Below are positions 31,858-52,779 of a stretch of 53,320 nt of DNA, one piece after another (within the stretch, counting starts at the first letter, position 1; each line of letters opens with the position of its first letter). A model generated the notes under the pieces. The model was not told where the DNA came from. It made no database searches and saw nothing but the letters and a program-made list of their open reading frames with translations. Position numbers and translations under genes: made by a program. The stretch comes from an archaeon (GTDB lineage Archaea > Thermoproteota > Nitrososphaeria > Nitrososphaerales > Gagatemarchaeaceae). The stretch covers positions 1 through 53,320 of the forward strand of contig JAKAUC010000008.1 in assembly GCA_021827865.1 (NCBI GenBank). Direction: 5' to 3'.

Positions 31858-31898
31858 CCGGTCCGCGTTGCGCCTACCACTGAGATGTCGCCGGACTC

Positions 31899-31908
31899 GA
31901 TAAATACG
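31899..31908 (+). promoter_or_regulatory. TATA box inside the longer polymerase small-subunit frame
   Basis: CGATAAATAC at 31899-31908 lies about 27 bases before a GTG at 31930 that is in frame with the polymerase gene. This indicates a leaderless transcript beginning at that GTG rather than at the upstream ATG 31885. Confidence 0.6.
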
Positions 31909-31929
31909 CCATGGGGTTTTCTGCGGCCC

Positions 31930-33399: not shown

Positions 33400-34589
33400 C
33401 CCGCGGCGCCGAAGGCCGGGTCCTCAGCGAGGGTCTTCTCCAGGGTGTCCCTGCCTATCAGGAGCCGGATCTTCTTAGTCCGCCCCCTCCTCCCCTTGCT
33501 GACCACTGAAGCCTCCACCAGCCCCAGCAGGTCCAGGTCCCCCAGTATGCCGCTCAGTCTCCTCTGGGTCAGCGTCTCGATGCCCAGCCTCCTGCAGAGG
33601 CCGCTGTAGGCGAGGTATAGTTCCCCGGTGTTCGTCCCCCCGTCGAACCTCGAGACCGCGTAGAGGATTGCTTTGTTCTGCACGGGGAGAGAGCGTATCG
33701 CCTCGTCCACCCTGTCCACCTCCATCTTGTCCGACGCCTTCCTGATGCAGGAGTCGTCGATTCCGTGGAGCCCATCCCGCTCGGCGACCTCCCCCGCGAT
33801 GCGCAGGAGATCGATGGCGCGTCTGGCGTCCCCATGCTCCGACCCGGCCATCGCCGCACAGAGGTTTATGGCTGCGGGTGACGCGACGGAAGGCCTGAAC
33901 GCGACCGCTGCCCTCTCCGTAAGTATCTCTCGGAGCTCGTCGACTGTGTATGGGGGGAAGACGAGCTCCTCCTCGCTCATGCTGCTCAGGACACGAGGGT
34001 CGAGCCCCTCCTTGAACTTGAGGTCGTTCGAGATCCCCACGATGGCGAGGAAGCCAGGCGAGAGCCTGTTCCCTGACCGCGTGAATGAGTAGAGGATGTC
34101 GTCTCCGAAGAGCTTTACCAGGTAGTCTATTTCGTCGAGAACGAGGACGACCTTCTTCTTGTTCTCTCGTATGTTCTCCGAGATCCTGTCCACAACTTCC
34201 CCGACGGCCAGGCCCGTGAGCGGTATCTGCTTGCCCTTGCTCAGGTCGAGGTGGCGGGCGAAGTCGGCCAGGGTACGATACTCGCCGTCGGCAAGCCGGG
34301 TATTGACATAGGCGAGGACCAGGTTGGGGTTGTTCGCCTCTGCCTTGAGCTTCGCCAGGACGTAGTTGGCCACCGCTGTCTTCCCGGTTCCCGTCTTGCC
34401 GTAAAGCAGGAGGTTCGATGGTTTTGAGCCCCGAAGGATGGGGGCCAGAATCTGGGCCACCGCCCTGGTCTGGGGGTCGCGGAACGGCAGGTGTGAGGGG
34501 ACGAACTCAGGGCTCAGGGCGTCTCGGTTCACGAATAGGGGCTTGCCTTCCTTGGCCCTGCGGAAGATTTCGTCTATGCCCTCTGGCAT
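33396..34589 (-). CDS. cdc6: Cdc6/Orc1 replication initiator
   Basis: This AAA+ protein recognises ORB elements and loads the MCM helicase at the origin. The 397-residue protein has Walker A (LLYGKTGTGKTAVANYVL), Walker B (VVLVLDEIDYLVKLF) and the sensor regions (LAIVGISNDLKFKEGLDPRV). A C-terminal winged helix follows (LYLAYSGLCRRLGIETLTQRRL, then LDLLGLVEASVVSKGRRGRT). It overlaps dp1 by four bases tail to tail. An ORB-like element stands eight bases before its ATG. Confidence 0.95.
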   Translation of the reverse strand: MPEGIDEIFRRAKEGKPLFVNRDALSPEFVPSHLPFRDPQTRAVAQILAPILRGSKPSNLLLYGKTGTGKTAVANYVLAKLKAEANNPNLVLAYVNTRLADGEYRTLADFARHLDLSKGKQIPLTGLAVGEVVDRISENIRENKKKVVLVLDEIDYLVKLFGDDILYSFTRSGNRLSPGFLAIVGISNDLKFKEGLDPRVLSSMSEEELVFPPYTVDELREILTERAAVAFRPSVASPAAINLCAAMAGSEHGDARRAIDLLRIAGEVAERDGLHGIDDSCIRKASDKMEVDRVDEAIRSLPVQNKAILYAVSRFDGGTNTGELYLAYSGLCRRLGIETLTQRRLSGILGDLDLLGLVEASVVSKGRRGRTKKIRLLIGRDTLEKTLAEDPAFGAAG

Positions 34590-34596
34590 CTAGGAG

Positions 34597-34611
34597 CAGT
34601 GGAAACACTGG
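34597..34611. promoter_or_regulatory. ORB-like core upstream of cdc6
   Basis: CAGTGGAAAC matches the core of archaeal origin recognition boxes, and CAGTG-GAAA-CACTG is also a perfect inverted repeat. It lies eight bases before the cdc6 start codon. A single element without the G-run suggests autoregulation by Cdc6 more than an origin. Confidence 0.45.
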
Positions 34612-34726: not shown

Positions 34727-35857
34727 CTATTCTTGCAGGGGGTCGACGGACTCCTTCCGGAGGGCGCCGCGCATCTGCCTGGCGTTGAACTTCCATTCGC
34801 CGTCTTGGTACATGTTGTGTGGGACGGTGAAGAAGTGCGAGTCGGCCGGGCTGATGAATCCTATCTCAACCTTCGAGGCGAGCCTGGGGAGCGCCCCGTT
34901 GATGTAAGCCGAGATAGCGAGCAGCTCAGTCAGCGGGGCGTACATGGTCGCGATGTAAGCGCCGCCTTCAAGGACGTCTTCGGACCAGAGGAATGGGATC
35001 TTGCCGATGGCGGCCTGGACGTCTGCGAGCTCCTGTTCGGAGAGGTTGCGGAACGCAAGCCAGGTCGTCGCGGTCGAGCGTTCCAGTTTCTTCGAGATGT
35101 CCTGGACCCACCGTATCCTGTAGGACGGCACGAGCTTCCACTTCTGGACGTGCGCCCTATAGTGATACTCCAGCGTCTTCTGATGGACCTTCAACCTCCT
35201 AGCGATCGTCGTGAGGTGTTGCAATGAGTCCTTCTGAAGCTCTTTGATTATGAGGAGGTCGTAGTAGTCGAAGTCCTCTATGTGTGGCTTCGGGCCGGAT
35301 GGCAATTGGAGCGGCGGCTGCTCCGCGAGCCTGTCCCATTCGATATCCCACCCCCCTGACCTGAAGTTGAAGTACTTCGGGTCCATCGGCTTGTGCCTGC
35401 TGGCCACTGACTCCTCAAGCGTGAAGCTGCTCAATATCCCCTCGGCCACCAGCCCTGCCAGGAACTCCCTGTACCCGCCTGCGGTGCCTTCCGGGAGCGC
35501 GAAGAGCGCCACGTAGTATCCCTGTGGGATGACCTTACCGTAGTACGCCAGGTAGCCCACCCGGTTCAAGGCTGCGAGCGTCTGGTCCGCCGTGCCATAG
35601 TGAGTCTCGGAGAAGTTCAGGCTGGCCCAGTGCAGATTCAGGCCCAGCTTTGGAAAGTCGACCTCGGCGCGGAACCTCAAGCCGAGCCGGCCGAACCTCT
35701 TTTTGATCTTGTACCTTATCGTCTCTTGGTGGGCGCCGGTCATCCGTGATATCTGAGCGATGTTCCTCGGGCCGGCCTTGCCGATGGCGGCGATTATCTT
35801 GGTCTCGAGGTCCGGAGCTTCGTCCTTGATGGCCCGGGGCGACTTGGCGCGTACCAA
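34727..35857 (-). CDS. Lrp/AsnC-like regulator with two HTH domains
   Basis: A 376-residue DNA-binding protein. A first helix-turn-helix lies at about 15-65 (KIIAAIGKAGPRNIAQISRM, GAHQETIRYKIKKR). A second is near 200-245 (YDLLIIKELQKDSLQHLTTI, LKVHQKTLEYHYRAHV). Ligand-like domains follow each, and the layout is a tandem duplication of an Lrp-like unit. The TATA-like TTTAATTACT near 35880-35890 lies about 28 bases before TTG 35857, so the mRNA is probably leaderless. The target is unknown; trpB2 and the transporter operon lie upstream but are separately transcribed. Confidence 0.75.
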   Translation of the reverse strand: MVRAKSPRAIKDEAPDLETKIIAAIGKAGPRNIAQISRMTGAHQETIRYKIKKRFGRLGLRFRAEVDFPKLGLNLHWASLNFSETHYGTADQTLAALNRVGYLAYYGKVIPQGYYVALFALPEGTAGGYREFLAGLVAEGILSSFTLEESVASRHKPMDPKYFNFRSGGWDIEWDRLAEQPPLQLPSGPKPHIEDFDYYDLLIIKELQKDSLQHLTTIARRLKVHQKTLEYHYRAHVQKWKLVPSYRIRWVQDISKKLERSTATTWLAFRNLSEQELADVQAAIGKIPFLWSEDVLEGGAYIATMYAPLTELLAISAYINGALPRLASKVEIGFISPADSHFFTVPHNMYQDGEWKFNARQMRGALRKESVDPLQE

Positions 35858-35965: not shown

Positions 35966-37348
35966 TCATCTGCCCTTGACATATTCGGGGACGCTGAACT
36001 CCGCCGGCTCCCAATCTATGAGCTTCCCGCGGTTGAACTCGTCGTAGGCCGAGAGGTCGAGGAGGCCGTGGCCGCAGTTGTTGAAGACGATGACTTTCTT
36101 CTCCCCCGACTTCCTGCACCTGATCGCCTCGTCGATGGCGTACCTCAGACCATGGGCCGACTCGGGAGCCGTGACCACCCCCTCGGTCTCGGCGAAGATC
36201 TTCGCAGCCTCGAAGACCTTGGTCTGTCCGAACGCGACAGACCTCACCACCCCCCTGTGTATGAGGAGCGAAAGGCTCGGGGCCTTGCCGTGGAACCTGA
36301 GCCCCCCCGCGTGGATGGGCGGGTTCGCGAATTGGTGCCCTACGGTGTACATCTTCACGAGTGGGGTGTGCTCGGCGGTGTCGGCGTAGTCGTAGGTGAA
36401 TTTCCCTCTGGTGGTCGAAGGGACCGCGCTCGGCTCGCAGGCGACGAACTCGGCGTCAGACTTGCCCCGGAGCTTCTCTCTCACGAAGGGGAAGATGAAG
36501 CCTGAGAAGTTCGACCCCCCGCCGATGCAACCGCACATCACGTCTGGCTCGAGGTCGAGGAGCTCGAACTCCTTCTGCGTCTCGAGCCCTATGACGGTCT
36601 GGTGGGCGAGGGCGTAGTTGAAGGCCGAAGCGAGGAGATACTTCGACCCTTCGTTGGCCAGCGTGTCTTCTATCGCCTCGCTTATCGCTATGCCGAGAGA
36701 CCCAGGATGCTCAGGGTCCTCCGCAAGGAGCTTCCGTCCTGTCTTCGTGTTCTTACTCGGGGACTCCAGCACCTCGGCGCCGTAGGTCTGCATCATGATC
36801 TTCCTGCCTGGCTTCTGCATTGCACTGACCCGCACCATGTAGATCCTCGCCTTCAGGCCGAACAGCGCGCAGGACATCGCCAGGGCGGACCCCCATTGTC
36901 CCGCGCCGGTCTCCGAGACGGCCAGATCCAGGCCTTGCTTCTTGGCGTAGTACGCCTGGGCGAGGGCCGTGTTCGGCTTCATGCTCCCCACCGGGGAGAA
37001 TTGCTCCGCCTTGTAGAATATCTTGGCAGGCGTCCTGAGGCGTTCTTCCAGCCTCCGGGCTCTGACAAGCGGGGTGGGCCGTGGGAGCCTCCTGTAGGCG
37101 TCCCAGACCTCCTCGGGGATGTCGAACCACCTCTCTTCCGAGAACTGCTGCCTGACGAGCTCTCGAGGGAACAGGGCCTCGAAGCTCTTCTCGGTCACAG
37201 GCTCCAGGGTGTGAGGGTCGAGCATAGGGGCCAGCTTCTCGGGGAGGTCGGGGACGATGTTGTACCACCTCCGCGGCAGCTCGTCGGGGTTCAGGACGGC
37301 GCCATACTCGCGGTCCGCGTACCCGCGGGTGGGGGCCCTGGGGCTCAG
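35966..37348 (-). CDS. trpB2: tryptophan synthase beta-like protein (TrpB2 type)
   Basis: A PLP enzyme of the TrpB2 subfamily, which uses serine with indole or a related partner. N-terminal RRWYNIVPDLPEKLAP, PRPTPLVRARRLEERL, the PLP Lys in SPVGSMKPNTALAQA, GAGQWGSALAMSCAL and GGGSNFSGFIFPF are clear. No ATG, GTG or TTG exists in frame between the end of livM and the conserved N-terminus. The best candidates are CTG 37348, overlapping the livM stop as CTGA (460 residues), or CTG 37294 (442). The first in-frame ATG would delete conserved sequence. It is last in the transporter operon. Confidence 0.85.
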   Translation of the reverse strand: MSPRAPTRGYADREYGAVLNPDELPRRWYNIVPDLPEKLAPMLDPHTLEPVTEKSFEALFPRELVRQQFSEERWFDIPEEVWDAYRRLPRPTPLVRARRLEERLRTPAKIFYKAEQFSPVGSMKPNTALAQAYYAKKQGLDLAVSETGAGQWGSALAMSCALFGLKARIYMVRVSAMQKPGRKIMMQTYGAEVLESPSKNTKTGRKLLAEDPEHPGSLGIAISEAIEDTLANEGSKYLLASAFNYALAHQTVIGLETQKEFELLDLEPDVMCGCIGGGSNFSGFIFPFVREKLRGKSDAEFVACEPSAVPSTTRGKFTYDYADTAEHTPLVKMYTVGHQFANPPIHAGGLRFHGKAPSLSLLIHRGVVRSVAFGQTKVFEAAKIFAETEGVVTAPESAHGLRYAIDEAIRCRKSGEKKVIVFNNCGHGLLDLSAYDEFNRGKLIDWEPAEFSVPEYVKGR

Positions 37349-38277
37349 TTCCGACGCCTCCTGGCGACGAGCCCCCTGGGCCGGAAGAGCGCCACAGCCA
37401 CCACGGCCAGGGAAAGGATGAAGACGTCCAAGGTCGAACCTGGGAGCTGGCTGGTGACGAAGTAATTTAATGCGCTGAAGACCAGGGCGCCGACTACGGG
37501 CCCCTCCAAGGTCCCAGTCCCGCCTATGATGACCATGAACAATGGGAGCAGGGAGAAGCTCAGGTTCTGGAAGATGGTAGTGTCGGCCGTTCCGGCTATC
37601 TCGAGGTAGTACAGCCCAGCCAGGGCGGCGAGGGCCCCGCTGACCACCAGGGCGACGGCCTTGTATGCGCCCACGTTGACACCTACGCTGGCCGACGCCA
37701 CCTCGTCGCTTCCGATGGTCCTGAGCGCGAAACCGACCTTCGACCTCATCATCAGATACACGCCGAAGACCGACGCGACCGCCAGAGCAAGCCCTGAGTA
37801 GTAGAGCTGCGAGGAGCCCAGTATCTCCGCGCCGGGCACCCGGAAGACCGAGGTACCGCTCGTCACTTCGACGAGTGGTTTGACCATGTAGGGGACGACG
37901 AAGGTCGCCACCGCGAAGTAGAAGCTCTTCAGCCTGAAGGTGGGAATCAGGAGAGCTCCCAGAGTGGCGCCGGACAGGGCGGATATGGGGACCATCGCGG
38001 CCAGGGGAATCCCCGACTGCAGCCCCGCCCCTCCGACCACCGCCCCGAGTCCGAAGAAGGCGACGAGGCCCAGGTTGAAGAGGCCGCCGAACCCCCCGGT
38101 GAGGTTCCAGCTCACGGCCAAGGTTATCCATACGAAGTAGATGACGAAGGCGCCCAGGAAGCTGGGATCGAAGCCTCCTGAGAGGGGGACGAGCCCTGCG
38201 AGTATGGCCCCAGCTGTGAAGACTACTAGCGACTTGGGCGCTTTCAGGAGGCCCCCTGACAGCCCGCCTGCAGTCAA
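37345..38277 (-). CDS. livM: branched-chain amino acid-type ABC permease LivM
   Basis: A polytopic inner membrane permease of 310 residues. The typical LivM pattern of eight or so hydrophobic helices includes the EAA-like region LKSFYFAVATFVVPYMVK and GGTGTLEGPVVGALVFS near the end. It pairs with LivH. Start overlaps the end of livH as ATGA. The transported substrate is not given by sequence. Confidence 0.9.
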   Translation of the reverse strand: MTAGGLSGGLLKAPKSLVVFTAGAILAGLVPLSGGFDPSFLGAFVIYFVWITLAVSWNLTGGFGGLFNLGLVAFFGLGAVVGGAGLQSGIPLAAMVPISALSGATLGALLIPTFRLKSFYFAVATFVVPYMVKPLVEVTSGTSVFRVPGAEILGSSQLYYSGLALAVASVFGVYLMMRSKVGFALRTIGSDEVASASVGVNVGAYKAVALVVSGALAALAGLYYLEIAGTADTTIFQNLSFSLLPLFMVIIGGTGTLEGPVVGALVFSALNYFVTSQLPGSTLDVFILSLAVVAVALFRPRGLVARRRRN

Positions 38278-39221
38278 ACCCGCTCCCCCCTCCCAAAGAG
38301 CCCGGAGGGCTTTAGCATCAGGACGCCTAGGAAGAGCGAGAAGGTGACCAGGTTTCCCAGGTCTGCGTGGAACCCCGACTGGATAGGCAGCGTGAGCGCG
38401 AGATACCCAGACACGCTGGCCACCACCCCCACCAGGAGCCCTGCCACGAGGGTGCCTCCGACGCTCCCCAGCCCGCCCAGGATGACGACCACTATGATCA
38501 CTGGTAGCAGCACGTTGTCCCCGGAAGTGGGGGTCACGGAGTTGGTGAGCGCGAAGAACCCACCGGCGATCCCAGCCAGCCCCGAGCCTATGACAAAGGA
38601 GATCAGTTTTGCCTTCGTGGTGTCGATTCCGGAGAACTCGGCCGCCTCGGCGTCCTGGGCCGTCGCCCTGATTGCTCGGCCGAAGTACGTCCTGCGGAGG
38701 AAGAGCTGGAGGAGGGGGATGACGACGATGGCCGCCATGAAGGCGAGGAGCTGCGCGTCGGGGAGGTAGACCGGGCCCAGGCGTATCGACTGGCTCGAGT
38801 ACCCGAGCGACCCGGCCGTCGCCCCCAGCCCTCCCGATGGGTCGATTGAAGGGATGGGGCCGAGCCCGTTGGCGATGACGTACTCCATCAGCATCGATAC
38901 CCCGAAGGTGACCAGGAGCGGCGCTTCGAATCCCTTACTCTCCACGCGCCTGACGACGAGGAGGTAGATCGCACCCCCGAACAAGGCGAGGAGGGCGAAG
39001 TCGAGGGGGATGGAAGCCAGCGGGTCGAGATGTAGGGCCGGGGTGAGCGCTATGGAGAACTGGATGGTGATGAAGGCCGCGAGCACTATGAAGGCGCCGT
39101 GGGCGATGTTGAGTATCTTCTGCACCCCGAAGATTAGAGAGAACCCGGAAGCTGCGAGGGCGAAGAAACCCCCTTGCAATATCCCGCTCGCCACCGCCTG
39201 AGAGACCCCGACCAGTTCCAC
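38274..39221 (-). CDS. livH: branched-chain amino acid-type ABC permease LivH
   Basis: A 315-residue permease with the LivH signature blocks: GGFFALAASGFSLIFGVQKI, LNIAHGAFIVLAAF, RATAQDAEAAEFSGIDTTKA and GGLGSVGGTLVAGLLVG near the end. Start is GTG 39221, seven bases after the livF stop. It forms the membrane channel with LivM. Confidence 0.92.
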   Translation of the reverse strand: MELVGVSQAVASGILQGGFFALAASGFSLIFGVQKILNIAHGAFIVLAAFITIQFSIALTPALHLDPLASIPLDFALLALFGGAIYLLVVRRVESKGFEAPLLVTFGVSMLMEYVIANGLGPIPSIDPSGGLGATAGSLGYSSQSIRLGPVYLPDAQLLAFMAAIVVIPLLQLFLRRTYFGRAIRATAQDAEAAEFSGIDTTKAKLISFVIGSGLAGIAGGFFALTNSVTPTSGDNVLLPVIIVVVILGGLGSVGGTLVAGLLVGVVASVSGYLALTLPIQSGFHADLGNLVTFSLFLGVLMLKPSGLFGRGERV

Positions 39222-39228
39222 TCCGAGC

Positions 39229-39939
39229 TTACACCTCTCCTCCCAGGTATGCCCCCCGTACGTGGGGGTCGTTCACCAGCGTGGCGCTCGCCCCGCTCAT
39301 CGCGATGTGGCCGTTCTCGAAGACGTAGGCCCTGTCCGAAGCCGAAAGCGCCAGGTCGAGGTTCTGTTCTGCGAGGAGGACGGAGGTCCCTTCGTCCGCG
39401 AGCCCTCTCAGGGCCTTGAGCGTTCTGCCCGTGGCTGCAGGGGAGAGCCCGAGGCTGGGCTCGTCGACGACCAGAAGCGCGGGCTTCGTCATCATAGCCC
39501 TCCCGATGGCGATCATCTGCTGCTCGCCGCCGGACAGCGTCCCTGCCTGGAGCGAACGCTTCTCTGTAAGCGATGGGAAGATCGAATAGACTTCGGCCAT
39601 CCTCTGCTCGGCGTCCCTGCAGCCTCTCGGAACCGCGACGGCGAGGTTCTCGTCGGCGGTCATGGCCGGGAAGAGCCGCCTCCCCTCGGGGACGAACGAA
39701 ACGCCCCGAGAGACTATTTCGTGAGGCCTGCGGGAGGAGATCTCCTCTCCCCTTAGCTTGACGCTGCCGCTGCTCGGCCTTACGAGCCCCATTATCGATC
39801 TGAGGAGGGTGGACTTGCCCGCGCCATTCGCGCCTAGCAGGGCCACCGTCTCTCCTTCTTCGACCTTCAGGCTGACGTCCCAGAGCGCCCGGACGTTGCC
39901 GTGGTAAGCGGACAGCGAATCCACCGAGAGGAGAGTCAT
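39229..39939 (-). CDS. livF: ABC transporter ATPase LivF
   Basis: A 236-residue ATP-binding subunit. Walker A is LLGANGAGKSTLLRS, the signature motif TLSGGEQQMIAIGRAMMTKP and Walker B LLVVDEPSLGLSP; the H-loop region is VLLAEQNLDL, as typical of LivF. It powers uptake with LivG and starts five bases after the livG stop. Confidence 0.94.
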   Translation of the reverse strand: MTLLSVDSLSAYHGNVRALWDVSLKVEEGETVALLGANGAGKSTLLRSIMGLVRPSSGSVKLRGEEISSRRPHEIVSRGVSFVPEGRRLFPAMTADENLAVAVPRGCRDAEQRMAEVYSIFPSLTEKRSLQAGTLSGGEQQMIAIGRAMMTKPALLVVDEPSLGLSPAATGRTLKALRGLADEGTSVLLAEQNLDLALSASDRAYVFENGHIAMSGASATLVNDPHVRGAYLGGEV

Positions 39940-39944
39940 CTTGC

Positions 39945-40715
39945 TCAGGCTCGTGACTCCAGCGGCGCCGGGGGACGCCCTCCGATCGGGTAGGCACCCC
40001 CTAGGTACACCTCGGCCACCGCCCTCGACCTCAGGACCTCGCCCGTCTCTCCCTCCGCGAGCTTGGCCCCCCGATCCATGACCACCAGCCTGCGGCAGAG
40101 GCTCGTCACGGCGTCGACGACGTGCTCCGAGATTATCATGGCGAGGCCCCGCTCGCTTCCCACCCGCCTGATCAGGTCGACCATGGGACCCCTTTCTGCC
40201 GGGCCGAGCCCAGCCATTACTTCGTCCAGCATGAGCAGTCTCGGCGCCGTCGCCAGCGCCCTTGCAAGCTCCAGCCGCCTCTGTTCGGCCAGGGTGAGCG
40301 AGCCCGCCGGCCTGTCTCTCTTCTCCAAGAGCGAGACGAACCCGAGGAGCTCCCGGACCGCTGCCGAAGCTTCGCCCTGAGAGGATCTTCCCCTCCCGAA
40401 GAGCGCCCCCGCCATGACGTTCTCGCCGACGGTCATCTGTGGGAACGGCCTTGAGATTTGGAACGTCCTCGAGATTCCGAGGGCCACGCGGCTGTGTGGC
40501 CCCAGCCCTCTGAGGCTCGATCCGTCGAACGCCACCTTCCCCTTGTCGGCGTCCAGCGCCCCGGAGATCAGGTTGAACAGCGTCGTCTTTCCAGCGCCGT
40601 TGGGACCCATCAGGCCCACTACCTCGCCTTCAGAGACGGCCAGTGAGAAGTCACTCACCGCGTCCACGCCACCGAACGACTTCGATACCCCGTCAAGCTC
40701 GAGCAACTCGTCCAA
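39945..40715 (-). CDS. livG: ABC transporter ATPase LivG
   Basis: A 256-residue ATP-binding subunit. Walker A is LMGPNGAGKTTLFNLISG, the signature TLAEQRRLELARALATAP and Walker B LLMLDEVMAGLGPAE; the H-loop is IISEHVVDAV. These sequences are diagnostic for the LivG branch. It follows the binding-protein gene by 15 bases. Confidence 0.94.
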   Translation of the reverse strand: MDELLELDGVSKSFGGVDAVSDFSLAVSEGEVVGLMGPNGAGKTTLFNLISGALDADKGKVAFDGSSLRGLGPHSRVALGISRTFQISRPFPQMTVGENVMAGALFGRGRSSQGEASAAVRELLGFVSLLEKRDRPAGSLTLAEQRRLELARALATAPRLLMLDEVMAGLGPAERGPMVDLIRRVGSERGLAMIISEHVVDAVTSLCRRLVVMDRGAKLAEGETGEVLRSRAVAEVYLGGAYPIGGRPPAPLESRA

Positions 40716-40730
40716 CTTCGTTCGCTCCGC

Positions 40731-42104
40731 TTACGCCGGCGGCCACGGCTGGTGCTGGTGGTTCGTCCAAGAGAACGGGTAGATGGCGTAGCTCGTCGTC
40801 GCCACGTTCGTCGGCTCGAGGACCTGGAGCGCCTGGAGGGTCTGGCCGCCGACGGTGACGTCCTGCCACTGCAGGAGCTGTATGTACTGCTGCGACTGCA
40901 CCCACTGCCCCCCTTCGGTGAACGTCACCTCCCCCATGGGGGTCGAGAAGTTGCCAGAGCGCAGCGCGTTCCTGATCGCCATGTTGTTCGTGCTCCCGGC
41001 CGCCGCGATGGCGTCGGCTGCGACCAAGGCCTCGGTGAAGTAGACCCCCTCGAGGGTCGGGGGGTGCTTCCAGAAGGACTCATACTGCTGAACCAGGTTC
41101 GTGTTGTTGATGGCGTGGCCCAGCAGGTTCCCTGTGTATGGGGCGCTTGGGGACCATGGGTATGCAGACATGACGCCCACGGCGAGGTTTCCTACACCTC
41201 CGAGGGCAGGTAGAGCGAATGGGGCGACCGCGGTCCCTCTGGTAAGCAGCCATGCCTTCGGGGCGTAGCCGAGTTGGTGGGCGACTTCGATCATCAGCAC
41301 CGCGTCGGGGGGGACCGGGAGCCCGTAGACCGCCGCGGCGCCGGCCGCCTTTGCCGCGGTGATGAAGCTGGTCATCTCTGATGTGCTACCCGGAGTGAAT
41401 GTGGAGTCAGAGCACGTGCAGACAGTGTAGCCCAGCTGTTTGGCGTAGGCCTCCCCGGCGGCATTGTTCGCCTGGGCCGCTGCGTCTCCCTCACCGAAGA
41501 AGGCGATTGTGACGTTGTTGGATGGGGTCGACGGGTCTTCCGTGTGGAACCAGTTGAGGAACAGGTGCGCCTCGTTGGTCTGGTTTTCGAACGGCGCAAA
41601 TATCCAGGAGTTCGCGCAGTTAGTGCAAGTCTTGGCGGTGGAGACATACACAGGCCCTATGTATGGGATCGCGTTCCTCGATGCGAACTGCTGCGCCACC
41701 GAATCCTGGACGCCTCCGAGCTCCCCCAGGATCACGTTGGCGTGGTATTGAGAGACCAGCGTCTGCAGGTTAGTCTCGCCGATGGTCGGGTTGGACTGGT
41801 CGTTCAGTACTACGAGTTTGACCTTCTCGGTCTGGCCGTTGCTTAGTTTGATCCCTCCGTAGCTGTTGATCATCTGTACCGCCAGAGACAGCGTCCAGTT
41901 CTGCTCTTGGCCAAAGGCCTGGAGGTCGCCGGTCATGGACAGTGTCGCACCGAAGACGATTTCCTTGGTCGAAGTGCTTGCGCCGCGGACGTCGAGGGCG
42001 TAGTACGCGGAGCCCGCCGCCACGACCACTATGACTGCAATCGCCACCGCCGCGGCGGTGGTGGTGATGCCTCGTCGGTCGCTTAGAGCAAGGCCCTGGG
42101 ACAT
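40731..42104 (-). CDS. livK: ABC transporter substrate-binding protein (LivK-like)
   Basis: A 457-residue extracellular binding protein with a type I periplasmic-binding fold (IVFGATLSMTGDLQAFGQEQ, VVLNDQSNPTIGETNLQTLV, AYAKQLGYTV). The N-terminus has a long hydrophobic helix (AVAIAVIVVVAAGSAYYAL) that probably anchors it to the membrane. The mature part is rich in Asn, Gln and Thr, with possible glycosylation sequons. It is first in the livKGFHM-trpB2 operon. Branched-chain amino acids are the family default, but the attached trpB2 leaves aromatic or other substrates possible. Confidence 0.88.
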   Translation of the reverse strand: MSQGLALSDRRGITTTAAAVAIAVIVVVAAGSAYYALDVRGASTSTKEIVFGATLSMTGDLQAFGQEQNWTLSLAVQMINSYGGIKLSNGQTEKVKLVVLNDQSNPTIGETNLQTLVSQYHANVILGELGGVQDSVAQQFASRNAIPYIGPVYVSTAKTCTNCANSWIFAPFENQTNEAHLFLNWFHTEDPSTPSNNVTIAFFGEGDAAAQANNAAGEAYAKQLGYTVCTCSDSTFTPGSTSEMTSFITAAKAAGAAAVYGLPVPPDAVLMIEVAHQLGYAPKAWLLTRGTAVAPFALPALGGVGNLAVGVMSAYPWSPSAPYTGNLLGHAINNTNLVQQYESFWKHPPTLEGVYFTEALVAADAIAAAGSTNNMAIRNALRSGNFSTPMGEVTFTEGGQWVQSQQYIQLLQWQDVTVGGQTLQALQVLEPTNVATTSYAIYPFSWTNHQHQPWPPA

Positions 42105-42331
42105 TTTGGAACCGGTCGGAAGGCCTGCGCAATGACAGATTTAGCCAATCGTGAACATAATTGTACATGGGTCGGCCGAGGGGCGTCCCGGCTTCCGCGT
42201 GCGTCCGGCGGCGGTCAGAAAGCGCCCAGGCTCGGGCGGGCTGGCGCCGTAGGGAGGGGCGATGCGCAGGTTTGGGCACCCTGCAGGCGACTTTTCGCCC
42301 CCACGACGTACAGCCTGTAGGCTGACAAGAA

Positions 42332-42535
42332 GTAGTGCCCTGTGGGGTCCACGTACCTCATGGGGTTGTCCCCTCCATAGATGTACTTGTTCTGCGAAAT
42401 CGGGTCGGTCTTCGTCCCGTTGTAGGAGTCTTCGGTGATGAACCTCCCCGTCGTCGAGTTGTGGTACCTCGCCCCGTCGTAGTAGAGTCCGGTCGTGGCG
42501 TCGGGGAGTTTGCCGGTGTACTGGAAGACTTCTGA
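42332..42535 (-). pseudogene. RHS-repeat core domain fragment
   Basis: On the minus strand a short stretch encodes the hallmark of RHS/YD-repeat core domains: VFQYTGKLPDATTGLYYDGA, ARYHNSTTGRFITEDSY, then NKYIYGGDNPMRYVDPTGH. Such cores end very large secreted toxin or adhesin proteins. Here only about 68 residues remain, with no repeats upstream and no recognisable toxin tip after the PTGH end. The surrounding reading frame is unrelated sequence. I read it as a leftover of a once larger gene, perhaps removed by recombination. Confidence 0.7.
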
Positions 42536-42590
42536 TCCCAGTTCTAAGGCTGGGCCCAAGGGTCGTCGGCCTTTCGGATTTGCGTTGGTT

Positions 42591-42836
42591 TCAGCCTTTC
42601 GTGATTGACTGCTTCGTCGATGGGAAAGGATTCCTTCTCCACATCCAGTCCAACCCGCCCTTAACATGGAGCAGGATCTCTTTAGCCTCGCCGTCTGCCA
42701 TTTCGTCGATGGCGTCTCCCAGACCTGCAGAGAGGCCTTTGACGGCTTTGGTCTTGACGAGAATGTAAGTAGCCCTAGATTCTTCGTCTCGCGCCTCTTT
42801 GAGCGTCTTGGTGATTCTTTCCGCTGTCTCCTCCAC
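42591..42836 (-). CDS. hypothetical helical protein, about 81 residues
   Basis: I do not recognise the family. The translation is coherent and charged: AERITKTLKEARDEESRATY, VKGLSAGLGDAIDEMADGEA, then LLHVKGGLDWMWRRNPF. It is predicted mostly helical. Start is GTG 42836, with a TATA-like ATTTAACTT near 42886-42894 upstream. It lies between the RHS fragment and GGGP synthase. Confidence 0.5.
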   Translation of the reverse strand: MEETAERITKTLKEARDEESRATYILVKTKAVKGLSAGLGDAIDEMADGEAKEILLHVKGGLDWMWRRNPFPSTKQSITKG

Positions 42837-43028
42837 CTTATCGCCATGTTTGTGGGGCGCGTGTCTCGATAGAGGAGCGGCAGTAAGTTAAATCCGCATC
42901 TGGCGACCGAGTTTGCCGATTGAACGCTGTCATCCAGAGGACGACCACGCTGTACGACCACGATTCCTTCAATAGGTTCTCCAGTGGTGGGGAGCGCCGC
43001 CCGCTCCTACCGCCCCGCTTCGAGAACA

Positions 43029-43811
43029 CTAAGGCCCGGCCGCAGCCACGATTTGCTTCAGCTTCCCCTCGAAGCCGGACGACTGTAGGAGGTTTCCTAT
43101 GACGAGCACGTCGGCTCCTGCCTTCGCTGCCTTGGAAGCGGCGTCCGGACCTGTGATTCCCCCGCCGACGATCAACAGCCCGTCGTACACGTTCTTCACC
43201 GCCTGGATCGTTTCCTGGGAGATAGGTTCGCCCGAGCCGCTCCCCGCCTCCAAATACAAGGTCCTCATCCCGAGATATTTGGCCGCCAGCGCGTAGATCA
43301 CGGCGAGGTTCGGCTTCGATGCGGGTATGGGGTTGACTTGGCCGATGAAGCTGGTGGTGCTGTTGTTGCCGAACACCAGGTAGGCCATCGGGATGCTTTC
43401 GATCTTGCTCTTGTACACCTCGACGGCACCCAATGCCTGGGCCCCTATGATGAAGTATGGGTTGGTCGAATTAAGGAGAGAACTAAACAGAATGGCGTCT
43501 GCGAAACGTGATACTCCTGTGATGTTTCCTGGGAAAAGCACGATGGGAACTTGTGACTTGTCACGTTGCATGTGACTCTTAATCTCCTTTACCACGTCAT
43601 CCAGCCTTCCTTGGCTCGCCAGGGTGGACCCGCCCACCAGAATCAAAGAAACCCCAGCCTTGATTGACTTCCTGGCGGTCTCGGCCGCCTGTTTCGGATC
43701 GAAGTCCTCTGGGTCAATCAGCGCTGCGCAGATAGGGTGCTTCTTCGTCTCATCGGTAAGGCGTCTCTCTACCGGGCCCAGCTCGAACAAGTCAGACCCC
43801 GGCTTTGGCAT
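43029..43811 (-). CDS. geranylgeranylglyceryl phosphate synthase
   Basis: This enzyme makes the first ether bond of archaeal lipids, joining geranylgeranyl diphosphate to sn-glycerol-1-phosphate. The 260-residue TIM barrel carries HPICAALIDPEDFDP, SLILVGGSTLASQ, VLFPGNITGVS, LYLEAGSGSGEPIS and LLIVGGGITGPDAA. These are the glycerol-phosphate and Mg sites of the group II (archaeal) PcrB family. It overlaps the upstream Elf1-like gene by 20 bases. It is strong evidence that the chromosome is archaeal. Confidence 0.94.
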   Translation of the reverse strand: MPKPGSDLFELGPVERRLTDETKKHPICAALIDPEDFDPKQAAETARKSIKAGVSLILVGGSTLASQGRLDDVVKEIKSHMQRDKSQVPIVLFPGNITGVSRFADAILFSSLLNSTNPYFIIGAQALGAVEVYKSKIESIPMAYLVFGNNSTTSFIGQVNPIPASKPNLAVIYALAAKYLGMRTLYLEAGSGSGEPISQETIQAVKNVYDGLLIVGGGITGPDAASKAAKAGADVLVIGNLLQSSGFEGKLKQIVAAAGP

Positions 43812-44052
43812 AGTCGTCGACGAATGTGTTGTAGACGTCTATGTCGGCCCTCTTTGTTGAGTATCTCAGTTCCCGGCCTGCGTGGAGAGGACAGTTGGGG
43901 TTGCCACATGTGACGCGGAACACGAAATCCTGTGATGGCTCGTCCTGCTCAGATGTGATGCGGATGGAAATCAGACCGCATTTGGGGCAGGCGAATACTT
44001 TCGGGAGGGTTTTGTGGACCATTCGGAGGGTCTTCTTGCGTCTTCTACCCAA
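43792..44052 (-). CDS. Elf1-like transcription elongation factor
   Basis: An 86-residue protein of the Elf1 family. The basic tail MGRRRKKTLRM is followed by a zinc ribbon with CPKCG (VFACPKCGLISI) and CGNPNC. Elf1 binds transcribing RNA polymerase in archaea and eukaryotes. Start is TTG 44052. It is coupled to the GGGP synthase gene. Confidence 0.88.
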   Translation of the reverse strand: MGRRRKKTLRMVHKTLPKVFACPKCGLISIRITSEQDEPSQDFVFRVTCGNPNCPLHAGRELRYSTKRADIDVYNTFVDDYAKAGV

Positions 44053-44211
44053 CCTTGCTCACCCATCCGTCTGTTATTTCGAGTAGATAAGGTAGCATGT
44101 CGTGGTGTTCGGGGCCGATTGGTGTTTATTTCAGTTTAGCCGTGGCTTAGGTGTGGGTCATACATTAATGCCAGTGGTTTGTTAGAAGTTTCGGAAAACC
44201 AGCGCTGTGTT

Positions 44212-44221
44212 GGTTTAATAC
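44212..44221 (+). promoter_or_regulatory. TATA box of the 125-residue HTH-like gene
   Basis: GGTTTAATAC centres about 29 bases before the TTG at 44246. This fits a leaderless mRNA and supports the TTG start. Confidence 0.55.
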
Positions 44222-44245
44222 AAACCTGTAAAACGTGGATGGGAC

Positions 44246-44623
44246 TTGAGCCTACCAGAGTCGTTGGTCGAACAGTCCACGTTAACGCCCAGGCAACTCG
44301 AGGTCCTGCGGTTGTATGTGCGGGTGGCCCATGGTGAAATGAAGTATGTGGAGGCTGCCTCGAAGGCTTCCCAGGGTCGCACGAAGGGGGCGAGCGGGCC
44401 GCTTACCATTGGCTCGTACTTTCGAACGGTCCAGCAGGCCAGGGAGAACGTTAAGAGTTCGGTTGTTACCCTTCTAATTGGAGTCTGGCTTGGAGTTGTC
44501 AAGCCCGACGATGTACGGCGACTGCTTGACGTAGCTGGCAGTGGGGTGAGAACGCTGTCAGAAGAAGAAACAGCCAGACTTGCGGGGGTGTTGCGTGAAT
44601 TGGTCAAGAGAATTGTGATGTGA
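44246..44623 (+). CDS. small HTH-like protein next to the probable origin
   Basis: A 125-residue all-helical protein. The motif LTPRQLEVLRLYVRVAHGEM followed by VEAASKA resembles a sigma-70 region 4 or LuxR-type helix-turn-helix. Then comes LTIGSYFRTVQQARENVKSSVVTLLIGVWL and a C-terminal pair of helices (VKPDDVRRLLDVAG). I do not recognise the family. It is the first of three genes for DNA-binding-type proteins around the ORB cluster. A role in replication or regulation is only inferred from position. Confidence 0.6.
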   Translation: MSLPESLVEQSTLTPRQLEVLRLYVRVAHGEMKYVEAASKASQGRTKGASGPLTIGSYFRTVQQARENVKSSVVTLLIGVWLGVVKPDDVRRLLDVAGSGVRTLSEEETARLAGVLRELVKRIVM

Positions 44624-44957
44624 GTGGTGTGATAAATCACGACCCACCCTTGCGTCGGGCGTGGATTTGTTTGATCAGGGGTGTGTTGGGGCCCTTTGTT
44701 TCTCCTTGAAGCGCGCCTCCTGCTCGTGCGAGTCCTCCTAAGCGGGTCCTCTTCCCGCCTTGAGAACGATATGAGAGGGTTTGTCGGCTGCCGGCAACGT
44801 CGATGTTGGAGTTTCGACTCCCCGAACGCCGTCTTGGGCTTTGGTGCGGGGATGGCCTGGGTCAAATGTGTGGGGGCGGCTTAGTGAGGTCACAAAGAAC
44901 AGCTTCTGCGCTGGAAACATCACGCTTATATCACAACCAAACATCACGAAGTCACAG
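44624..44957. other. gap with hairpins and direct repeats before the anchored wHTH gene
   Basis: No gene is seen. GCGGG-7-CCCGC (about 44741-44757) and GGAGT-TTCG-ACTCC (about 44812-44825) are stable hairpins. A weak ORB-like sequence, GGCCCTTTGTTTCTCCTTG, lies at about 44690-44708. AAACATCACG occurs twice, at 44915-44924 and 44939-44948, flanking the TATA box CTTATATC (44924-44931) of the next gene, probably as an operator. A short untranslated RNA is possible. Confidence 0.4.
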
Positions 44958-45632
44958 ATGGACACGCTTTCTACCTACGCTCTTCTGACTGCGTCCTTCT
45001 TCTTTGTCGCCCTTTCCTTCGCGTTGCTGCTGAGGTATAGGCAGATTTCCCAAAGAATCAACGCGTCGAACGACCTCGGTCATGATCTTTGGTCCTCGCT
45101 GGAACAGCGTCTCAAGAAGCAGGACGAGCGCATTCTGGACGTCATGGGCAGGGTGGAGGTCATTCAGGCCAGAGTAACGTCGTCGGCTTTGGTTCCGCCC
45201 ACCCCCCGTGTTGCCTCGCCTCCGCCGAAGGTCCCTCCTCAATCCTCTGTGCAGGCGAATTCCACGGTTGTGACCGAGCCCGCACCCACCACGCAACAGC
45301 AGGAACAACCAAAGTCACGCTCAGAGTCACAGGCATCACAGACAACGCAGGCATCAGGAGAGCCTGAACCGGTGGTCGGCGCTCCCGGGGTGGAGCTCGC
45401 TTTGGACGAGACCCAGCTTGCTGCCTTGAGGATCCTGGGCGGGAGCCCCAGGGACACCCGCCAGCTCACCGATGTCCTCCAGAAGTCCAGGGAGCACACT
45501 GCCCGTCTGATGAAACAGCTGTTCGAGCTGGGCCTTGTAAAGAGGGACGACTCGTCCAAGCCCTTCGTCTACCAGCTGACCGATGAAGGCCGTCGCCGGC
45601 TTGCAGACAACCCCCCACCCCCTCCACCCTAG
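44958..45632 (+). CDS. membrane-anchored winged-helix protein
   Basis: A 224-residue protein with an unusual layout. It has one N-terminal membrane helix (TYALLTASFFFVALSFALLL, residues about 5-24), a short coiled coil (ISQRINASNDLGHDLWSSLE), and a long low-complexity linker of Pro, Gln, Ser and Thr (about 75-150). A winged helix lies at about 150-215 (DETQLAALRILGGSPRDTRQ, TARLMKQLFELGLVKRDD, FVYQLTDEGRRRLAD). Such a protein can tie DNA to the membrane. Its stop lies 31 bases before the first ORB. ATG 44958 fits the TATA box at 44924-44931 (near-leaderless). Confidence 0.75.
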   Translation: MDTLSTYALLTASFFFVALSFALLLRYRQISQRINASNDLGHDLWSSLEQRLKKQDERILDVMGRVEVIQARVTSSALVPPTPRVASPPPKVPPQSSVQANSTVVTEPAPTTQQQEQPKSRSESQASQTTQASGEPEPVVGAPGVELALDETQLAALRILGGSPRDTRQLTDVLQKSREHTARLMKQLFELGLVKRDDSSKPFVYQLTDEGRRRLADNPPPPPP

Positions 45633-45663
45633 TCTGGTAGGCAGGCCTACGCACCCCCTCCCC

Positions 45664-45690
45664 AACCCTTCGCTTGTTTCCACTCTAAAG
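45664..45690 (-). repeat. ORB-like element 1
   Basis: Read on the minus strand this contains GAGTGGAAACAAGCGAAGGG. It keeps the TGGAAAC core and the downstream G-run but has a less typical left half than the other three elements. Confidence 0.6.
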
Positions 45691-45834
45691 GAGCCCAATA
45701 GAAGAAGTCAATCTTACGTAAGTAAAGGGGCCCGTACTCGGTTAGCGGTCTTGACTGGATATACCTTGGGGTCTAGACATGGCAGCTACTGGTGTGTAGA
45801 CGACACCGCGGCGTGCTTGTTTGTTCGGGAGATA

Positions 45835-45858
45835 GGCTCCACTGGAAACGGTGGGGTG
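45835..45858 (+). repeat. ORB-like element 2
   Basis: GGCTCCACTGGAAACGGTGG, followed by more G. It is the only element facing right, so elements 1 and 2 point away from each other around the 45691-45834 segment. Confidence 0.72.
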
Positions 45859-45909
45859 GGGGATCGATAGTGAACACCGGTGAACGCCGTCTTGGGAAGG
45901 CCCTGCAGG

Positions 45910-45933
45910 GACCCCACTATTTCCACTGGAGCC
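45910..45933 (-). repeat. ORB-like element 3
   Basis: On the minus strand it reads GGCTCCAGTGGAAATAGTGG and then a G-run. It shares GGCTCCANTGGAAA with elements 2 and 4. Confidence 0.72.
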
Positions 45934-45968
45934 TGTCCAGACCCAGAACCTGTGAATAGCCAGAATCT

Positions 45969-45992
45969 GACCCCTTTGTTTCCATTGGAGCC
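45969..45992 (-). repeat. ORB-like element 4
   Basis: On the minus strand it reads GGCTCCAATGGAAACAAAGG and then GGTC. This is the closest match to the ORB consensus known from Sulfolobus and Pyrococcus (core TGGAAAC, AAA, G-run). Confidence 0.78.
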
Positions 45993-46142
45993 GCTCCAAG
46001 CCCATCCTGGCGAAGGCCCCAGTGAACCCCAGTGAACTTTCTCCCTGCTATCAATACGCCGTCCAACTAACTGACAGGCAGGTTCACAAGTTCACACCTG
46101 CCACCGCTAAATCGGGGCCTGAGGCACCGGCAGGGCAAAGCA

Positions 46143-46541
46143 TTGCGGAAACGGATCAAGATTGAGCTGGAGGACGACGAAGGGACGAAGTACACGCTCG
46201 CGCTGGAGGGTTCGGTCTCCAGGGACAAGCTGATGAAGGCCATGGAAATGCTCGAAGTCATGGACGTCCCCATGGAGCCCGCCCACCGGGCGCCGGACGA
46301 GGGGACCTTCTTCGGCAAGGTACAGACGCTACTGGAAACGACGTTCGCGGCTGGCGACTTCTCGTCGTCGGACGTGGCTCGGGAGTTCGAGGAGAGGTAT
46401 GATCAGCCGGTGAAGCTGAGCACCATCTCGACGTACCTGGCCCGCCTGGCAGACAGGCAACACATCAAGAGGGAGCGCTTCGGGAACTCCTGGGTGTACC
46501 GCCGGGTGTACCTCAAGCCGGCCCAGGTCGCCGAGAGGTAG
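46143..46541 (+). CDS. small winged-helix protein beside the probable origin
   Basis: A 132-residue protein. The N-terminus is strand-rich and acidic (KIELEDDEGTKYTLALEG). The C-terminal half (about 60-125) is a winged helix: FSSSDVAREFEERYDQPVKL, STISTYLARLADRQHIKRER, FGNSWVYRRVYL (wing). Start is TTG 46143; no other start lies nearby. It is the right-hand neighbour of the ORB array, and the TTCAC pair at 46083-46095 lies just upstream. Its place recalls origin-adjacent winged-helix proteins of Sulfolobus, but homology is not shown. Its 3' end overlaps the methyltransferase remnant. Confidence 0.65.
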   Translation: MRKRIKIELEDDEGTKYTLALEGSVSRDKLMKAMEMLEVMDVPMEPAHRAPDEGTFFGKVQTLLETTFAAGDFSSSDVAREFEERYDQPVKLSTISTYLARLADRQHIKRERFGNSWVYRRVYLKPAQVAER

Positions 46542-51528: not shown

Positions 51529-52779
51529 ATGTTAGAGTGGGGGAAAGCATCTGAATTTGCAGAAAAAAAGTTCCGTCGCAGCAAGAGCCTCCACACGAAG
51601 AGGTACTACGAGAACGGCGTAAGGCGCTTCAGGCAGTACTGCGAAGAGAAGCGCATCGCGGAGGTCGACGAGGAGAGCGTCTATGGGGTCCTCGACGGGT
51701 TCGTGAGGTGGCTCGACCTCCAGGGGATCAAGCCCAAGACACTGACTGGGTACGTCCACGCCGCCAAGAAGTTCCTCCTGTTCCTGGATGTCAGGATAGA
51801 CCCCCAGCGCTTCAGGGAGAAGGTGGAGCAGCCGAGGATACTCAAGATAGAGGACGAGCCCCTCTCTATGGAGACCCTGAGGAAGGTCCTCACCCTGGGA
51901 AGGCCCAACAGGAAGATGCTCGCCCTGGTCCTGCTGCTCCTCTCGTCGGGGATGAGGCTGGCGGAGGCCCTGAAGCTGAGGGTGTCGGACCTGGACCTGG
52001 ACTCGCGCCCGGCCGCGGCCACGGTCAGGGCCGAGAACACCAAGAACGGGAGGCTGAGGGTCGTCTTCATGACGGACGAGACGAGAGACGCGATCAGGAG
52101 GATACTCTGGGACTGGGACCCGGCCCCGAGGGCGCCCAAGGCGAAGGTAGTCCCCGCCCCGAAGGACAGGTACGTCTTCACGTTCGACGGGGACATCTGG
52201 GGGCGGGAGAAGACCGCGATCCGGACCTTCAGGAGGGTGTGCGAGAGGGCCGGGTGCAACAGGCTGATTGAGGGGCACAGGACCCACGTGGTGCACTTCC
52301 ACCTCTTCCGAAAGTACTTCCTGACCAAGGGGAGCGATGTCATCGGGGAGCACGCGGCCCACGCCCTCTGCGGGCACGGCTTCTACATGGACACTTACTA
52401 CAAGAAGTCGGTCGAGGAGAGGGCGGCGGATTACAGGAGGCTCGTCCCGCACCTCACGGTGTTCGCCAAGGTGGAGACCGGGCAGGCGGAAGTGCTCTCG
52501 GCCATGAACAGGAGGTTCCTCCAAGTGTTCAGCTTCACGGACGAGGAGATCGGGGGGCTGGGGGACCTTTCGGGGCTCTCCCCGGCGGACCTGCAGAGGC
52601 TGATAGCCACGAAGGATGGGAAGGCGCGGACGTTCAAAGCCGAGAAAGTTGCTGCGCCGTCAATAGGAGGCATGCCGAGAGCAGACATAGGCAGGATAAG
52701 GGAACTGGTCCCGGACGGGTGGGAGCTTCATGTTAAGGACGGGGAAGTGGTCATGAAGCGGTCGGCCTCCTCTCCCTGA
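51529..52779 (+). CDS. tyrosine recombinase (integrase) beside tRNA-Pro
   Basis: A 416-residue site-specific recombinase. The catalytic set is visible: Arg143 in SSGMRLAEALKL, Lys172 in ENTKNGRL, His258 and Arg261 in FHLFRKYF, His283 in LCGHGFYMD, and Tyr290 or Tyr291. Residues 1-110 are the core-binding domain; a C-terminal extension of about 110 residues is unassigned. It lies directly downstream of an intact tRNA-Pro on the same strand, where archaeal elements often integrate. Codon use is strongly GC-ending, like its neighbours. It could be the left edge of an element running off the window, or a remnant. Confidence 0.85.
   Translation: MLEWGKASEFAEKKFRRSKSLHTKRYYENGVRRFRQYCEEKRIAEVDEESVYGVLDGFVRWLDLQGIKPKTLTGYVHAAKKFLLFLDVRIDPQRFREKVEQPRILKIEDEPLSMETLRKVLTLGRPNRKMLALVLLLLSSGMRLAEALKLRVSDLDLDSRPAAATVRAENTKNGRLRVVFMTDETRDAIRRILWDWDPAPRAPKAKVVPAPKDRYVFTFDGDIWGREKTAIRTFRRVCERAGCNRLIEGHRTHVVHFHLFRKYFLTKGSDVIGEHAAHALCGHGFYMDTYYKKSVEERAADYRRLVPHLTVFAKVETGQAEVLSAMNRRFLQVFSFTDEEIGGLGDLSGLSPADLQRLIATKDGKARTFKAEKVAAPSIGGMPRADIGRIRELVPDGWELHVKDGEVVMKRSASSP

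Follow-up and report, generated by a model that had tools for sequence, protein, structure and literature searches.

A probable chromosomal replication origin parted from cdc6 in an archaeon of the Gagatemarchaeaceae, with a second conserved repeat and a linked winged-helix gene

Archaeal replication origins are usually located, and explained, through the initiator gene that adjoins them, an arrangement described as typical in the accessible part of PMC4010727. The stretch of DNA analysed here (the window, 53,320 nucleotides) is contig C18 of a 20-contig genome of 1,935,541 bp (1.94 Mb), and its first-pass annotation had called a probable replication origin with four ORB elements about 11 kb from the only visible cdc6. 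The locus thus raises the question of whether a chromosomal origin has come to lie apart from its initiator gene, and of what has stayed with it. The origin elements of the window are as follows.

about 45660-45696, minus strand: ORB D, a degenerate fourth ORB, with its G-run shifted about 9 bp off the core
45683-45732, no strand: most AT-rich intergenic 50 bp (56% AT), a candidate unwinding region between ORB D and ORB A
45834-45858, plus strand: ORB A, PWM match with exact core
45910-45934, minus strand: ORB B, PWM match with exact core
45969-45993, minus strand: ORB C, PWM match with exact core, 59 bp from ORB B

The ORB consensus of archaeal oriC includes a G-run. The PWM matches at ORBs A, B and C bear out the annotation's three elements with a common core, sharing GGCTCCANTGGAAA and such a run, and all four ORBs, which are predicted Cdc6 sites, do lie inside about 330 bases as it had stated. 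Its fourth element keeps the core GTGGAAA but is degenerate, the distance from TTTCC to the G-run being 13 bp versus the usual 4. Judged by eye, 12 of the 13 genus origins in the alignment share this 13-bp register, and 8 have an exact TTTCC; the offset, common to the congeners, places the G-run nearly one helical turn further on. Inverted ORBs that carry both core and G-run are thus present, as in an ORB-type oriC; no strongly AT-rich unwinding region stands out, and the AT peak between ORBs D and A, at 56%, is at most a candidate. The genome-wide consensus search that the annotation had proposed as a check found the exact core at this locus only: without mismatch, CTCCANTGGAAA has three matches in the 1.94-Mb genome, all of them the ORBs at 45834-45993. 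With one mismatch it has 17 matches in the whole genome, the same number as a reversed control pattern, so these sites look like background. Chance occurrence of the ORBs was ruled out by the genome-wide confinement of exact cores to the locus, and the concentration of the motif at a single genomic place holds both in this genome and in that of the congener G005.

An exact ORB with G-run was found in 14 of the 25 genus members searched, one of which (G001) has a lone poor match (PWM 9.3). The remaining 13, among them the window, have their outer ORBs (A and C) 135-138 bp apart, some of the ORB A elements scoring only 10-18; the middle ORB B was detected in 11 of them, 58-62 bp from ORB C, and in each of the 13 a gene for a winged-helix protein comes after ORB C. 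Four genus members whose genomes are 88-91% complete (G001, G008, G022 and G024) show neither cdc6-1 nor a convincing ORB, through assembly loss or true absence.

Skew is a weak guide in archaea, according to the portion of PMC12999951 at hand. For the window's own genome, 20 sampled stretches of the fragmented assembly were uninformative; within the window, cumulative GC skew tops at 44,889, 0.9 kb from ORB A, which agrees, weakly. As the window genome is in 20 contigs, the turning point in strand asymmetry is shown in the closed congener G005 (a single contig of 1,504,237 bp), where the ORBs lie at 1,099,034-1,099,194. Its cumulative GC-skew maximum (1,117,473), keto-skew maximum (1,092,138) and cumulative coding-strand minimum (1,083,948) fall 18, 7 and 15 kb from the ORBs, respectively, the GC-skew minimum (351,316) lies roughly half a chromosome from them, and the skew amplitude exceeds that of all 2000 block shuffles. 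The coding-strand maximum (1,498,734), which lies away from the GC-skew minimum, counts against this picture. Taken alone, the sign of the GC skew would fit a terminus equally, and with an origin at the ORB end the leading strand would be C-rich, the reverse of the common bacterial pattern; this end is read as the origin because of the ORBs, the cdc6 gene and a leading-strand coding fraction of 57.6%. Unique elements, a geometry and neighbouring gene conserved in the genus, and the G005 skew extrema together support the annotated origin, and lead us to read the locus as the chromosomal oriC, displaced from cdc6, with a probability of about 90% for origin and displacement jointly.

The displacement can be followed in the genes around the ORBs.

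31885-33399, plus strand: DNA polymerase D small subunit, the cdc6 neighbour in genus loci
33396-34589, minus strand: cdc6/orc1-1, presumed initiator (Cdc6_C, 4.3e-22; TIGR02928, 1.7e-107)
34597-34610, no strand: mini-ORB palindrome CAGTGGAAACACTG, just upstream of cdc6
34727-35857, minus strand: HTH gene, between cdc6 and the origin in several congeners
35966-42961, minus strand: PLP enzyme and branched-chain amino-acid ABC transporter genes, inserted between cdc6 and the origin and lacking at this place in the congener loci compared
43029-45632, both strands: inverted block of a PcrB-like gene (minus), an uncharacterised gene (minus) and a wHTH membrane protein gene (plus), here between cdc6 and the ORBs
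46143-46541, plus strand: 132-aa winged-helix gene linked to the origin (T94 codon, 46422-46424)

The host is an uncultured archaeon of Thaumarchaeota type, presumably of the class Nitrososphaeria, and its Cdc6 protein has relatives of 89-90% identity in four named MAGs. The cdc6 gene lies 11.2 kb from ORB A, in line with the first estimate, so that the adjoining initiator gene that is usual, though not obligatory, for an ORB-type oriC is not found here. Five congeners (G002, G003, G005, G007 and G014) have the start of ORB A some 0.2 kb upstream of cdc6; the two are 1.9-2.6 kb apart in G004, G010, G015 and G020 and 19.5 kb apart in G009, origin and cdc6 are on separate contigs in G023 (where 17 of 22 origin-flanking ORFs have no match in G005), and G018 is too fragmented for measurement. 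The gap from cdc6 to the winged-helix gene has a median of 498 bp in the 128 of 150 class genomes in which it is measurable on one contig (best cdc6 row per genome), and 127 of these pairs are divergent. While 121 gaps are under 1 kb and six are 1.3-3.1 kb, the window has 11,556 bp, more than any other of the 128, in a sample with three genus members only (G000, G005 and G012) and with G009 (19.5 kb) and G023 outside it. The remaining 22 genomes comprise 11 in which the pair wraps the contig ends, four with split contigs, two without a listed cdc6 row, two without the winged-helix gene and three with neither listed.

The order in G003 and G005 is cdc6 (minus), ORBs, winged-helix gene (plus), wHTH membrane gene (minus), uncharacterised gene (plus) and PcrB (plus), and that in four genomes of other families (G027, G030, G031 and G035) is the same minus the uncharacterised gene; the PcrB/wHTH block thus lies beyond the winged-helix gene in G003, G005 and other families. 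The order in the window is cdc6 (minus), HTH gene (minus), transporter cluster, PcrB (minus), uncharacterised gene (minus), wHTH membrane gene (plus), ORBs A-B-C and winged-helix gene (plus), which, to judge from gene order, would arise from a G010-type order by one inversion and an insertion. The best G005 match of the HTH gene is 110 kb from the G005 origin. A gene of the tyrosine integrase family (51529-52779) lies 5 kb right of the origin; G005 has a 48% homologue at 1.07 Mb, and the gene may encode a chromosomal recombinase or be what is left of a mobile element.

Besides the ORBs, alignment of the 13 genus origins brings out one box and three GTGAAC-like pairs, listed here with two less conserved motifs.

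45714-45723, no strand: TTACGTAAGT; of the 13 origins, 4 have it exactly and 4 more have near copies (by eye)
45758-45776, plus strand: conserved box GGATATACCTTGGGGTCTA, in the interval from ORB D to ORB A; 9 of 13 origins show no more than two differences from GGATATGCCTTGGGGTCTA (by eye)
45870-45885, plus strand: TGTKAAC element 1, a GTGAAC pair with copies at 45870 and 45880 (10-bp period)
45902-45911, no strand: 10-bp palindrome CCCTGCAGGG, which none of the other 12 origins in the alignment shows
46022-46037, plus strand: TGTKAAC element 2, a GTGAAC pair with copies at 46022 and 46032 (10-bp period)
46082-46096, minus strand: TGTKAAC element 3, GTTCACAAGTTCACA, with GTTCAC at 46082 and 46090 (8 bp), invariant in 13 genus origins

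The palindrome that the annotation had placed amid the ORBs was recovered, in the window alone among the aligned origins, and the TGAAC repeats that it had described with a 10-base period hold for two GTGAAC pairs but not for the third, spaced 8 bp. What it had missed is that the winged-helix gene is a constant neighbour in the genus, and that these repeats are a second conserved element of the origin, as judged from sequence, with the form TGTGAAC or TGTTAAC by lineage. Element 1 sits between ORB A and ORB B and element 2 follows ORB C, and the pairs occupy corresponding positions across the alignment of 13 origins; element 3 ends 46 bp ahead of the winged-helix start codon. The exact pattern GTGAAC-N4-GTGAAC occurs twice in the genome, both times at the origin, and allowing one mismatch adds a single site, on contig C20 (2 matches for the reversed control); GTTCACAAGTTCACA is present as a single copy in each of 13 of 41 genomes, at the aligned origin, and has no reversed-control matches. 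GTTAAC repeats occupy the same region in families f8 and f10, which we take to be ammonia-oxidiser-like. Class loci hold up to eight TGTKAAC copies within 500 bp, and GTGAAC or GTTAAC is enriched relative to dinucleotide shuffles in 24 of the 29 loci tested (at most 2 of 200 shuffles reaching the count; L202, the thirtieth locus, left out), the five unenriched loci all being from family f2. GC content was rejected as the cause of the GTGAAC or GTTAAC form, upstream GC being 23-58% in G-type and 23-48% in T-type loci.

Homologues of the winged-helix protein were found in 145 of the 150 genomes sampled from the class and in 129 of 200 from the phylum. Its structural model (mean pLDDT 73, pTM 0.55) has an N-terminal hairpin, a helix near residue 60 and a winged helix at 80-93; a structure search with the model gave only generic ArsR/Fur-type winged helices and no PDB match at E<=0.001, and a PDB sequence search gave nothing relevant. 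The recognition helix, in which residue 94 lies, is nearly invariant. Where residue 94 is T (38 loci), there are 98 GTGAAC and 13 GTTAAC sites; where it is I, V, L, M or A (35 loci), there are 4 and 111, respectively. Residue 94 ranks first in covariation with the variable repeat base among the columns scored, in a scan of 73 loci that were chosen by what had been fetched and with columns gapped in more than four families skipped. By family, T94 is found in 12 of 12 G-type versus 3 of 10 T-type families (p 0.0007, uncorrected, since the covariation was spotted by eye before the scan; f2, f29, f43, f48 and f50, with no or equal sites, are excluded). In a tree built without column 94 (60 of the 73 loci, midpoint-rooted, from a short protein), three of six residue changes share branches with three of six motif changes (expected 0.3, P 0.0016), residue and motif are discordant in 6 of the 60 loci, and the covariation is partly a matter of one clade versus another. 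A hydrophobic residue contacting the extra methyl of T would be chemically sensible. The covariation makes the winged-helix protein the most likely reader of the repeat, and its binding to TGTKAAC is predicted with odds slightly better than even. A literature search of partial coverage returned no paper dealing with TGTKAAC repeats or with a winged-helix protein of this kind.

The strongest competing account, which we regard as possible but clearly the less probable, is that Cdc6 acts on the ORBs while some other protein (the second Cdc6, a nucleoid protein like Sulfolobus UBP, or MCM) acts on TGTGAAC, the winged-helix gene being a mere neighbour. The generic fold, with PDB matches at E<=0.001 absent, would suit such a bystander, as would families f48 and f50, which combine the gene and ORBs (one ORB-like match in f48) without TGTKAAC. 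Against it stand the first rank of residue 94 among the scored columns and the invariance, in 13 origins, of a third pair 46 bp before the start codon. The closeness of that pair to the gene also fits a different account, in which the TGTGAAC repeats are operators for autoregulation of the winged-helix gene and have no role in replication, and winged-helix regulators do often autoregulate; it is an unlikely one, given two more pairs, in the ORB A/B interval and past ORB C, with counterparts in the 13 aligned origins, and as many as eight copies per 500 bp in class loci.

While cdc6 at 33396-34589 is the only one in the window, a second lies on contig C20. A second ORB cluster at either gene was rejected: around the first, the PWM finds one match of 11.3, inside the gene, plus the mini-ORB upstream, and in 10 kb around the second there are no PWM matches above 9. 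That second Cdc6 (L155:4512-6743, minus strand, equal to G000:C20:499512-501743) is interrupted near the P-loop by an intein-like insert of ~350 aa that matches Hom_end_hint; six congeners (G008, G012, G014, G015, G022 and G023) have open frames of 754-757 aa, and others have shorter homologues. Of 14 genus genomes, 11 have the mini-ORB CAGTGGAAACACTG in exact form just upstream of cdc6 and three have a near copy there, with the origin near or far; it is probably a site of Cdc6 autoregulation parted from the origin. The second cdc6, and the inactive potential origins of haloarchaea reported in the accessible part of PMC4595724, could accommodate a dormant or relic origin in the window with the active one elsewhere, for example near the second cdc6; this is very improbable in view of the lack of PWM matches above 9 in the 10 kb around that gene, the strong conservation of the elements in the aligned origins, and the turning points of skew and gene orientation near the orthologous locus in G005. 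A Cdc6-controlled promoter region in place of an origin, for which the ORB-like site directly upstream of cdc6 might speak, is more improbable still, with four ORBs in 330 bp, their conserved spacing and the G005 skew against it.

Across the class, 25 of the 30 loci with the best scores have ORB-like matches upstream of the winged-helix gene. Three families (f2, f48 and f50) have the gene without upstream TGTKAAC: f50 keeps ORBs beside it, and f48 has one ORB-like match. In family f2 (G025, G098, G101, G119 and G181) neither ORB nor TGTKAAC is recognisable upstream of the gene, which, in the four genomes that allow measurement, lies about 3 kb from cdc6. In 44 phylum genomes cdc6 and the winged-helix gene do not share a contig or are separated by more than 5 kb; in the 28 of these 44 that were analysed, ORBs are beside cdc6 in 15 (f29, f34 and f47) and beside the winged-helix gene in 7 (f26, f44 and f50), with no answer in 6, while they lie between the two genes in all eight linked controls. 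The idea that the winged-helix gene is always with the ORBs holds in the 13 genus genomes and the 7 from f26, f44 and f50, and fails in the 15 from f29, f34 and f47. The ORBs have thus left cdc6 elsewhere too, the winged-helix gene can also leave, and the 15 of 28 genomes with ORBs beside cdc6 and the winged-helix gene elsewhere indicate that this gene is not required in cis everywhere. We consider it an even bet that many Thermoproteota have a two-protein origin code, in which Cdc6 reads the ORBs and the winged-helix protein reads TGTKAAC, residue 94 deciding between G and T as the third base of the repeat, with the origin and winged-helix gene forming a unit that has left cdc6 in several lineages.

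The window resembles known Orc1/Cdc6-dependent oriC (Sulfolobus oriC1; the single origin of Nitrosopumilus) in its ORB consensus with G-run and its inverted ORBs, and differs in an initiator gene 11 kb off, an AT-rich unwinding element that is not pronounced and, as far as the available accounts of those origins go, the addition of TGTKAAC repeats and a linked winged-helix gene. In Haloferax and Haloarcula, ARS activity is reported not to depend on an initiator gene in cis (PMC4010727, available part), and displacement of an origin from cdc6 would thus be tolerable. The nearest parallel, in the accessible portion of PMC12141716, is the Sulfolobus ucm/UBP system, where an extra conserved motif among ORBs has a reader other than Orc1. 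By contrast with the modelled winged helix encoded beside the origin, UBP is saddle-shaped with a strand swap, and whereas it binds hundreds of sites, the window genome has two exact repeat pairs, both at the origin (exact pairs, not single hexamers, being counted; PMC12141716, same portion). Sulfolobus oriC3 likewise has a winged-helix gene, WhiP, beside the origin, a likeness by gene position; going by the parts available of PMC4010727 and PMC5333045, WhiP there replaces Orc1, whereas the window origin has full ORBs as well.

In the proposed mechanism, Cdc6/Orc1-1 from 33396-34589, its gene working in trans from 11 kb away, would bind ORBs A-D, load MCM and start bidirectional replication, as expected of the ORB family. 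The 132-aa winged-helix protein would bind the phased TGTGAAC repeats, which lie both among the ORBs and next to them, and act with Cdc6 as co-initiator or remodeller, binding and role together being marginally favoured. The ancestor presumably had cdc6, ORBs and winged-helix gene in succession; on the evidence of gene order, the block from the origin to PcrB would have inverted and the amino-acid transporter cluster would have been acquired, leaving 11 kb between cdc6 and the ORBs; the ORBs, repeats and winged-helix gene would have remained a single unit, and cdc6 would have retained a private upstream mini-ORB, probably autoregulatory.

The locus is ordinary as an ORB origin and unusual in its distance from cdc6, and the second element with its likely reader is what is most interesting about it. 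A natural parting of origin and cdc6 shows what travels with the origin, and so what it may need in cis. Here the separation singles out the winged-helix protein and the repeat, both of which are also present in relatives of the ammonia-oxidiser type, for which cultures exist, and the covariation of residue and base makes the helper hypothesis directly testable.
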